In this document: piece after piece, positions 16,428 through 18,254 of the stretch
Layout: each line of letters opens with the position of its first letter
Numbering within the stretch: position 1 is the first letter of the stretch
Virus record (IMG/VR): IMGVR_UViG_3300017991_000124
Coordinates: 1 to 58,359 of that record
Direction: 5' to 3' (one strand)
Length of the DNA stretch: 58,359 nucleotides
Source: a virus
Program-made: the position numbers and the translations under genes
Notes under the pieces: model-generated
Seen by the model: only the letters and a program-made list of their open reading frames with translations
What the model was told of the DNA's origin: nothing
Database searches by the model: none

Positions 16428-16910
16428 TTACTTCTCGGTCTTGGGCAGGGGCAGTTGCGCGCGCACCCGCTTGGATTCCACGCGCGCCGCTCCAATGACC
16501 GCCGCCGTGACCTGGGCTACATGGTCCGCACGGCGTTGGCTCTCCTCGCTCATGCGCGCCCGATCCGACGAGGTGACCACCGCGCTCCCGCGCTTCACCG
16601 CCCGTAGACCCCCGCGATATTTAGAGGATCCGTGATCTACGCGCTCGTCCGGCGACAGCACCTTGAACCCGACGCCACGCTCGACGCCTACCAGTACGTT
16701 GTACTCCCGCCAGAGCACCGACCGCCATCGATCGGTGACCGTCTTGAACCGGGTGCTCTCCCGGGGCGTTCCGATCAGTTCCGCGATCTCGGCGTAGGGG
16801 ATCACTTGCCCCTCTTCGGGCACCTGATACCGCTCGCGCAGTCGCGCCAGTTCGATGTCGGTGGGCACGCCACCGAAGTACAACCCATCATCTTTTTGCT
16901 GATCATTCAT
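16428..16910 (-). CDS. Winged-helix-like protein downstream of the pentamer/hairpin array
   Basis: 160 residues from ATG 16910 with GGAGGTGGTG just before it; GTG codons upstream are part of that site. LARLRERYQVPEEGQVIPYA, EIAELIGTPRESTRFKTVTD, RWRSVLWREYNVLV and GVERGVGFKVLSPDERV match the pattern 'G..L.Y.EI...IG.D.........AR..L........V...G..RL...E', a winged-helix-like domain I recall from many uncharacterised phage proteins. The C-terminal half is basic and helical (RGGLRAVKRGSAVV, ARMSEESQRRADHVAQ). Function unknown. It is the last gene of the odd cassette and would be translated from the array transcript. Confidence 0.7.
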   Translation of the reverse strand: MNDQQKDDGLYFGGVPTDIELARLRERYQVPEEGQVIPYAEIAELIGTPRESTRFKTVTDRWRSVLWREYNVLVGVERGVGFKVLSPDERVDHGSSKYRGGLRAVKRGSAVVTSSDRARMSEESQRRADHVAQVTAAVIGAARVESKRVRAQLPLPKTEK

Positions 16911-16933
16911 CACCACCTCCGTCGGTTAGAAAT

Positions 16934-17181
16934 GCACCATTGGTGCCCATGCCAAGCCCGGCCAAGCCGCGCCGCGCCGAGCCCCGCCGCGCCGGGCCCG
17001 GCCGCGCTCCTAGTTGCGCCATTGGCGCCCTTGCCTCGCCTCGCCACGCCCAGCCGTGCCACGCCCTGCCGAGCCATGCCACGCTCCGTGCTAGTTGTCC
17101 CATTGGGACCCATGCCTTGCCCCGCCCGGCCCAGCCGCGCCTTGCCCAGCATGGCCTTGCCCCGCCGGGCCAGGCCAAGCC
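16934..17181 (-). repeat. Three degenerate 5-nt repeat arrays separated by covarying hairpins
   Basis: In the transcript (minus) sense GGCNN units recur in strict 5-nt phase. On the plus strand GCC falls at every fifth base from 17114 to 17179 (13 GCC and one GCA), from 17033 to 17083 (10 GCC, one GCT) and from 16951 to 17006 (11 GCC, one GCT). Each array ends at a 13-nt hairpin: plus-strand GTCCCATTGGGAC (17097-17109), GCGCCATTGGCGC (17016-17028) and GCACCATTGGTGC (16934-16946). The starts are 81 and 82 nt apart. The loop ATT is constant while the stems change in compensating pairs. Two hairpins are followed in the sense direction by AACTAG and a GGAGC block. The stretch fills the gap between two genes and looks noncoding. 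Confidence 0.85.
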
Positions 17182-17193
17182 CCGATCCATGCA

Positions 17194-17898
17194 TCAGACC
17201 TGCGTCACGGTCGCCGCGAACTTGCCGAACACCCCCGGCGACTGCTTCGAACTCGGGCGCCAGTCGCACAACCCGCAGTACGCACCGCCGAGATCGAAGA
17301 ACTCCCGCACCACCTCGATCGGCAGCTTTTTGTCGTCCAGCACCGTCAGCGATCCGCGCGCCGTCCAGTTGCGAAATCGCGGGCGCACCCGGATGTGCTT
17401 CGCGCTCTTGACCCGCGCCCGCTTCACCAGCAGGTCGTAGCCCAGCGACCGCACCAGATCGATGTGCTTGGAGAATTGCCCCTCGTCGATCAACCCGGTG
17501 ATGTCGTCCCAAAGCACGGGGCGCCCGTTGGCCTCGATCGGCCAAATCTGCTCGTTGATCAGGATGCTCGACTGGCTCAGTTTCTTGTAGGTTGTTTGCC
17601 CCTTCAAGATCTTCATCGCCCCCGCCTCGCGCAACATGGTCATGAGGTTGTCGGCGGGGATGCCGACGACCGTTCCGTCGTGGTAGACGTTGCCGAGCCA
17701 CCGCCAGGGAGGGGACCGATCGTCGCCCGCCTTGCTCTCGGTCTTGTTGTCCGCGTTCTTGGCCCACGCCTCCATCTGATCGCCCCACACCACGTTGTCC
17801 TGGTGCATGAGCAGATCCGTGCCGCCCACGTCCGCAGAGCCGACAAGGTTGTCAAGGCAGACGGGGCGATTTGATGGAACAATTGCGAAACCAGACAT
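17194..17898 (-). CDS. Conserved phage protein with Gly-rich C-terminal loop, function unknown
   Basis: 234 residues from ATG 17898; no strong Shine-Dalgarno. WRWLGNVYHDGTVVGIPADN then LMTMLREAGA, GQTTYKKLSQSSI, LGYDLLVKRARVKSAKHIRV and RPRFRNWTARGSLTVLDDKK belong to a widespread uncharacterised phage family. The end, GGAYCGLCDWRPSSKQSPGV then FGKF, is a Gly-rich loop followed by a strand. That loop, with the alternating strands, recalls RAMP-type (Cas5/6/7-like) RNA-binding folds, but this is an impression only. The stop codon lies ~13 nt before the first pentamer unit, so the array is the 3' part of its message. Confidence 0.75.
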   Translation of the reverse strand: MSGFAIVPSNRPVCLDNLVGSADVGGTDLLMHQDNVVWGDQMEAWAKNADNKTESKAGDDRSPPWRWLGNVYHDGTVVGIPADNLMTMLREAGAMKILKGQTTYKKLSQSSILINEQIWPIEANGRPVLWDDITGLIDEGQFSKHIDLVRSLGYDLLVKRARVKSAKHIRVRPRFRNWTARGSLTVLDDKKLPIEVVREFFDLGGAYCGLCDWRPSSKQSPGVFGKFAATVTQV

Positions 17899-17913
17899 TC
17901 ACAGTCGCGTAGT

Positions 17914-18201
17914 TCAGCAACGGAATACTACCTCACAGCACGTCTTTGCCTCCCGTGCCTCGCGGATCTGCCGCACCAGTCGCTCCCGTTGTTGCGGTGT
18001 CATCTTTCTCTTTTCTGCCGCTTCCCTGCGCAGTAGCAGCATGCCAAGACGGATTGCCAGGTCTGTCTCCTCACCGGTCATGCCAAACCGCTCCTGCATC
18101 TCCGCGCGGACCTCATCGGTGAACGGGTTGGTCAGCATCAGCCGCTCCAGCGCCTTCGTGCGGCGCCGTAGTGCCTCTTGCGAACAGTTCTTTTTCCCCA
18201 T
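17914..18201 (-). CDS. Small helical HTH-like protein, first gene of the array cassette
   Basis: 95 residues from ATG 18201 (GAGGAGGGGAAACGCC upstream). ALERLMLTNPFTDEVRAEMQ then ERFGMTGEETDLAIRL and ERLVRQIREAREAKTCCEVV parallel the N-terminal part of the 233-residue TerS-like protein (LERLLVTAPTHEEIYAVMAD, KFGMTRNAVHVAIQ). The two are probably distant paralogues. It is basic, helical and Cys-tipped (CC near the end). A DNA-binding role is inferred from that similarity only. Confidence 0.65.
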   Translation of the reverse strand: MGKKNCSQEALRRRTKALERLMLTNPFTDEVRAEMQERFGMTGEETDLAIRLGMLLLRREAAEKRKMTPQQRERLVRQIREAREAKTCCEVVFRC

Positions 18202-18223
18202 GGCGTTTCCCCTCCTCACACAT

Positions 18224-18254
18224 ACTATACCCCTGCTACCCGCTGCCGGGTAAA
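18224..18254 (-). promoter_or_regulatory. Promoter-like element and hairpin before the array cassette
   Basis: Minus strand TTTACC (18249-18254), a 19-nt spacer and TATAGT (18224-18229) precede ATG 18201. The spacer overlaps a 6-bp inverted repeat, plus-strand TACCCG-CTGC-CGGGTA (18237-18252), which could act as an operator or a weak end signal for the Pro-rich gene. The -10 matches five of six positions; the -35 is moderate and the spacer long, so activity is uncertain. Confidence 0.35.

Follow-up and report, generated by a model that had tools for sequence, protein, structure and literature searches.

Here we report that a Mu-like phage very probably carries a VIPR (Viral Interference Programmable Repeat) system as accessory cargo, with three predicted guide RNAs. 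The cassette lies in the window, by which we mean the whole 58,359-nucleotide (nt) stretch of DNA analysed (IMG/VR virus record IMGVR_UViG_3300017991_000124). Its assignment to VIPR draws on shared PHROGs, profile alignments, predicted RAMP and winged-helix models, GGYNN tracts, the co-occurrence of array and genes among relatives, and covarying 3′ tails. VIPR was described in a 2026 preprint, in which Escherichia phage SUSP1 is the founding example (PMC13142463). According to that preprint, Vipr is a RAMP with an RRM core, a G-loop and a thumb. SUSP1 Vipr–vrRNA complexes bind double-stranded DNA (dsDNA) through their NN pairs, leaving a single base unread from one pair to the next, and the unread base falls at wobble positions in the targets; the system represses transcription and restricts phages, with enhancement by vap1, and VIPR is proposed as a forerunner of CRISPR. 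The vrRNAs are described there as non-coding tracts of about 9–16 YNNGG repeats, in which GGY is constant and NN hypervariable. The window cassette combines a Vipr homologue, an adjoining vap gene, GGYNN tracts and a structured 3′ tail.

The minus strand of the region carries, in order, a 101-amino-acid (aa) open reading frame (ORF; 18219–17914), a 234-aa ORF (vipr), a pentamer/hairpin array, a 162-aa ORF (vap), a gp46-like gene (16355–15903) and a Baseplate_J gene. A gp45-like gene and two small ORFs flank the cassette region on one side and the gp46/gp47 baseplate genes on the other. This order, from 18219 to 15903, confirms the preliminary description of an array-bearing cassette among baseplate genes. 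Two further parts that it had assigned to the cassette, promoter-like elements and a small HTH-type gene, found no support: a sigma-70 scan of positions 15800 to 18700 returned no promoter-like site, and the 101-aa ORF matched no HTH family. The only clear relative of this ORF among the sequences compared is a paralogue carried by the phage itself (2965–2738, minus strand), about 15 kb away and 36% identical over 76 aa. We therefore ruled the ORF out as a VIPR component, and it probably lies outside the cassette. Nearby, at 18262–18573, a 103-aa ORF is built of a 96-nt tandem repeat encoding IPLPSIP-type peptide repeats, and has a relative at the corresponding place in another contig, L224.

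The array occupies 255 nt (17188–16934, minus strand) and is divided into three vrRNA-like units, which hold 14, 10 and 11 pentamers of the form GGYNN. All three are laid out as a GGANCNN delimiter, a pentamer tract and a 15-nt tail that forms a 5-bp hairpin. The first unit, vrRNA1 (vr1), opens with the delimiter GGATCGG (17182–17188), continues with 14 pentamers (17112–17181; NN = TT CT CC GG AA CA TG AA GC TG CG GG AA AT), one of which is degenerate (TGCTG), and closes with the tail GGGTCCCAATGGGAC (17097–17111). In vrRNA2 (vr2), the delimiter GGAGCGT (17081–17087) precedes ten pentamers (17031–17080; NN = AT TC AG GT AC TG GT GA GA AA) and the tail GGGCGCCAATGGCGC (17016–17030), and vrRNA3 (vr3) consists of the delimiter GGAGCGC (17004–17010), 11 pentamers (16949–17003; NN = CG CC GC GG TC GC GC TT CG TT AT) and the tail GGGCACCAATGGTGC (16934–16948), all on the minus strand. 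The longest phase-coherent run of GGY in the window is 11, whereas the maximum in 200 second-order Markov simulations was 5 and none of the simulations contained a run of 8 or more. Thus, the array is neither a chance arrangement nor an artefact of G+C content, and the array proposed from the letters alone is borne out. Its tracts of 10–14 repeats lie inside the range of 9–16 given in the preprint (PMC13142463). Rfam returned no match for the window region or for eight relatives. Among related loci of the same Vipr clade (defined below), the NN positions upstream of the last two repeats have entropies of 3.2–3.8 of 4 bits; the last NN ahead of the tail hardly varies (AA or GA; 1.6–2.05 of 4 bits), and hence probably lies outside the guide. 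Elsewhere, three loci (L015:6301-7010, L042:7605-9162 and L080:4354-5152) contain unbroken GGYNN tracts of up to 142 pentamers, far above 9–16, which may correspond to what the preprint calls "staggered arrays" (PMC13142463).

The 234-aa protein (17194–17898, minus strand) matches phrog_4652 (E = 6e-14), a family listed with unknown function in PHROGs, which also contains SUSP1 Vipr (1.4e-96). An hhalign comparison of the window Vipr profile with SUSP1 Vipr extended over the full length (P 99.9, E = 1.8e-36, 190 columns), and on this profile evidence the two proteins are homologous, at about 18% sequence identity. The AF2 model of Vipr (pLDDT 87.7) resembles a Cas7/Csm3-type RAMP: the best 50 rows in VIA-align were all CRISPR RAMP chains of effector complexes (Z 9.2–11.9, 129–175 residues), led by the type VII CRISPR chain 8yhe_F (Z 11.9, 164 residues, 3.6 Å), and Foldseek placed the same kind of chain on top, weakly (best E = 3.9e-3). 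The model thereby supports the earlier suggestion, prompted by a Gly-rich C-terminal end, that the protein has a RAMP fold. That end is real and is kept among relatives (G205, G209, D212–P215 and G225), its putative G-loop residues being recognised through conservation. Some 15 residues are, unusually, inserted close to the N terminus of Vipr; the conserved core residues are retained. Neither Vipr nor Vap had a match in Pfam, NCBIfam or PADLOC, and neither matches any cas family.

The homology to SUSP1 Vipr is also decisive against a type III toxin–antitoxin system, in which the repeats would be an RNA antitoxin holding one of the proteins, an RNase toxin. Tandem repeats beside a small phage gene and structured RNA punctuation are typical of such systems, but here the array-adjoining protein is a predicted Cas7-type RAMP, the repeats are 5 nt long with hypervariable NN instead of near-identical units of about 35 nt, and PADLOC is silent, so we regard this explanation as extremely improbable. 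ToxN-like toxins are absent among the fold matches of Vipr, which by itself is not an exclusion.

The downstream vap gene (16428–16916, minus strand; GTG start at 16916, ATG at 16910) encodes a protein that matches phrog_5926 (E = 1e-5), likewise listed with unknown function, and SUSP1 vap1 belongs to the same family (1.1e-75). The window Vap family aligns with SUSP1 vap1 in hhalign (P 97.4, E = 1.1e-11). Its AF2 model (pLDDT 90.2) resembles winged-helix DNA-binding domains with two additional long helices; the Foldseek matches, such as GlnR, have a probability of 0.99 but weak E-values (E = 0.018). The structural comparison therefore agrees with the initial view of this gene (16428–16910) as winged-helix-like and, together with the profile alignment, points to a vap1 homologue. 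The preliminary description had further taken the two proteins for known but uncharacterised phage families; both are indeed in databases, as phrog_4652 and phrog_5926, but they can now be named as the Vipr and Vap of VIPR systems.

The genes and the array occur together well beyond the window. Among 89 relatives picked by the Vipr protein alone, 86 have an array within 2.5 kb on the same strand and none has one on the opposite strand, and a triplet-shuffled control of these protein-picked loci yielded no arrays. Conversely, 85 of 120 contigs picked by the array pattern alone (eight GGCNN in phase) encode Vipr. The preliminary description would have been refuted had arrays been missing beside these families elsewhere; the counts speak decisively in its favour. 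A vap homologue lies downstream in 60 of 85 clade loci. This strand agreement bears on whether the pentamers act as DNA, as iterons or a partition site bound in double-stranded form by Vap or Vipr. The predicted DNA-binding winged helix of Vap and the five-base spacing, close to half a helical turn, would suit such a site; iterons, however, are free of any strand constraint, the variable NN and covarying 3′ hairpins fit RNA, and the predicted fold of Vipr is of the RNA-binding RAMP type. We accordingly consider a DNA site very improbable and read the array as a source of VIPR guide RNAs. Searching genome_contigs with only the window Vipr gave no relatives, whereas the clade alignment recovered 14. 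The gene pair with pentamer tracts, some of them degenerate, is present in Mycobacterium phage LittleE, Gordonia phage MakoManhole, the M. abscessus prophage prophiBWHA-1 and P. aeruginosa LESphi2; in LittleE, the cassette lies antisense among tail genes. The bacterial genome of Desulfovibrio sp. An276 holds a pair of VIPR loci on separate contigs, L143 and the prophage L137, and the latter contains ten vrRNAs, two of which (at 5066 and 5148) resemble diverged versions of one guide. In a FastTree phylogeny of 78 Vipr domains, the window pairs with locus L146 (0.977) inside a 49-member clade (0.985) that leaves out SUSP1 and the named phages.

The window tails share a 15-nt consensus, GGG-NNCC-AAT-GGN′N′C. 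We selected tails in the relatives by the pattern GGG-NN-CC-NNN-GG-NN-N following two pentamers, with pairing not demanded, and obtained 14 distinct sequences from 15 loci. Both NN pairs are complementary in 13 of these, in nine combinations, against 0.9 expected, and the fourteenth contains a G–U pair. This covariation supports a structured 3′ end, although the folding energies of single tails are no better than those of shuffles. Among 364 vrRNA ends in the clade, 159 have a bare 7-nt GGANCNN delimiter and 45 a short hairpin (9 among shuffled tails); the window array bears both marks. The main text of PMC13142463 contains no description of this hairpin tail type. The vrRNA tails of LittleE, MakoManhole and prophiBWHA-1 have another form, in which a tRNA T-arm-like element, with an invariant GTTCGA loop and variable paired stems, is closed by an acceptor-like stem (L007:4350-4420, 5815-5876 and 5945-6016; L005:1638-1696, 2970-3028 and 3089-3145; L008:4282-4342). 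ARAGORN called no tRNA in the relatives with these tails, Rfam was likewise silent, and the main text of the preprint does not mention tRNA (PMC13142463).

The closest Vipr relatives, in the IMG/VR loci L146, L147, L002-L004, L123 and L124, are 44–55% identical to the window protein and share the same-strand arrays and the GGANCNN delimiter. Most of them differ from the window in having more vrRNAs (up to 12), whose ends are the 7-nt GGANCNN without a covarying hairpin. The GGG-NNCC-AAT-GGN′N′C tail of the window, with compensatory NN changes, is instead found in L171, L174, L184, L185, L191, L196, L197, L201, L204, L206-L208, L216 and L219, in which Vipr is farther from that of the window than in the delimiter-type loci and some tracts extend to 37 pentamers. 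We raise, as a tentative and rather doubtful proposal, that the window clade represents a separate VIPR type, in which arrays are cut at the 7-nt GGANCNN and one branch, including the window, is capped by a 15-nt hairpin with two guide-specific variable base pairs. Such a cap may serve as a signal for processing or for loading, different from the pseudoknot-bearing tail in SUSP1.

A comparison with SUSP1, whose VIPR is assigned to type II in the preprint (PMC13142463), reveals shared phrog_4652 and phrog_5926 proteins, same-strand GGY/NN repeat RNAs, a structured 3′ tail and a phage host. The array, however, lies between vipr and vap in the window and outside the pair in SUSP1; the tails are 15-nt hairpins in the window and long and pseudoknotted in SUSP1; the window units, unlike those of SUSP1, have starts marked by GGANCNN; and the two Vipr proteins, with their low identity, belong to different clades. 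Given its vap1 homologue, the window VIPR is type II-like, yet its Vipr falls in the separate 49-member clade outside the SUSP1 group; among the seven types of the preprint, it may belong to type II (the SUSP1/P. fulva clade) or to one of the others with DNA-binding Vaps (VI and VII; PMC13142463). With the Cas7/Csm3 RAMPs of class 1 CRISPR systems (III-A, III-B and type VII), the predicted fold is common to nearly the whole of Vipr (Z 9–12, 129–175 residues), and RNA-guided logic would, by analogy, be shared as well. By contrast, the window has no cas family match for either protein and no CRISPR repeats or spacers; its repeats are 5-nt GGYNN units, its guides are coded in pentamers, and sequence identity to these RAMPs is about 10%. 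The cassette thus stands outside class 1 CRISPR–Cas.

These features suggest how the cassette could work. The array would be transcribed along with the genes and give rise to three short guide RNAs, with 14, 10 and 11 repeats of GGYNN respectively and a small hairpin at the end of each. On these repeats, Vipr subunits would align, gripping the constant GGY and exposing the NN pairs, as the predicted RAMP fold and the SUSP1 experiments suggest, and the NN pairs would read dsDNA with one base skipped between pairs, as shown for SUSP1 in the preprint (PMC13142463). Bound Vipr, together with the winged-helix Vap, would then block transcription of a gene in a rival phage, prophage or satellite. By analogy, the cassette is probably used for silencing competing phages; that every biochemical detail carries over from SUSP1 is an assumption, since the window protein branches apart from the SUSP1 clade.

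Searches for targets yielded a single lead. With a 1-nt skip, viral_contigs contained no exact target for vr2, for vr3 or for the 3′ portion of vr1, and the window contains no self-target of the guides. Once the tail-proximal NN had proved nearly constant, we scanned the core of vr1, which identified a single homologous site, shared by three near-identical contigs, where 11 NN in a row match, one of them lying outside the pattern. The unread base at this site falls at codon position 2, not at the wobble position, chance alone should give about 0.1 sites per scan, and vr2 and vr3 match the three contigs no better than shuffles; we therefore rejected the site as proof of a target and treat it as a weak candidate, a lead only. 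For the long guides of prophage L137, no target turned up in 288 genomes of the family when as many as three mismatches were allowed. In a test of the skip rule over 2.36 Mb on both strands, an excess at skip 1 was seen both for real and for order-shuffled guides, and real guides never exceeded shuffled ones at any skip length; the test had no power, and the excess, being present in the shuffled guides too, proves nothing and probably reflects codon periodicity. NN words common to different loci came mostly from duplicate copies of one contig or from near-identical contigs, and were set aside.

These searches also bear on whether the cassette is a product of decay, a VIPR that can still be recognised although its expression or its live target has been lost. 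Decay could account for the degenerate vr1 pentamer TGCTG, the 15 or so residues inserted close to the N terminus of Vipr, the absence of a promoter consensus in the scan and the lack of a convincing target, but every ORF is open, the Vipr core residues are conserved, the hairpins are perfect and show compensatory changes, and the rivals of an uncultured phage are often unsequenced. Decay is therefore very improbable in our assessment.

The surroundings of the cassette are informative about its movement. The baseplate genes of L223 are collinear with those of the window (gp45, gp46 and gp47 are 45%, 41% and 53% identical), and the same junction holds a Vipr (phrog_4652, 1.7e-39) that has no BLAST match to the window Vipr, with a different array and tail. 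In this array (L223:2973-3560), a long stem-loop tail (...GAGATCGCTTCAA...) is repeated behind each pentamer tract. The baseplate of L224 is also collinear, and other ORFs, without a Vipr match, occupy its junction. Given the diverged VIPR at the equivalent junction of L223, the simplest reading is that cargo can be exchanged at this baseplate junction and that VIPR travels as one unit, which lends support to the mobility suggested at the outset.

The VIPR kind itself was described in 2026. To it this analysis adds a further phage lineage, a minimal tail that covaries and is combined with GGANCNN, the near-absolute strand rule and the exchange of cassettes at one baseplate junction. A reading from sequence alone had arrived independently at the VIPR parts list. 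Roughly 90 close relatives enlarge the VIPR family, with array and vipr agreeing in strand almost without exception, and the minimal covarying tail and 7-nt delimiter are short, testable units. The replacement of one VIPR by a diverged VIPR at a single phage locus provides evidence that such weapons move cassette-wise.
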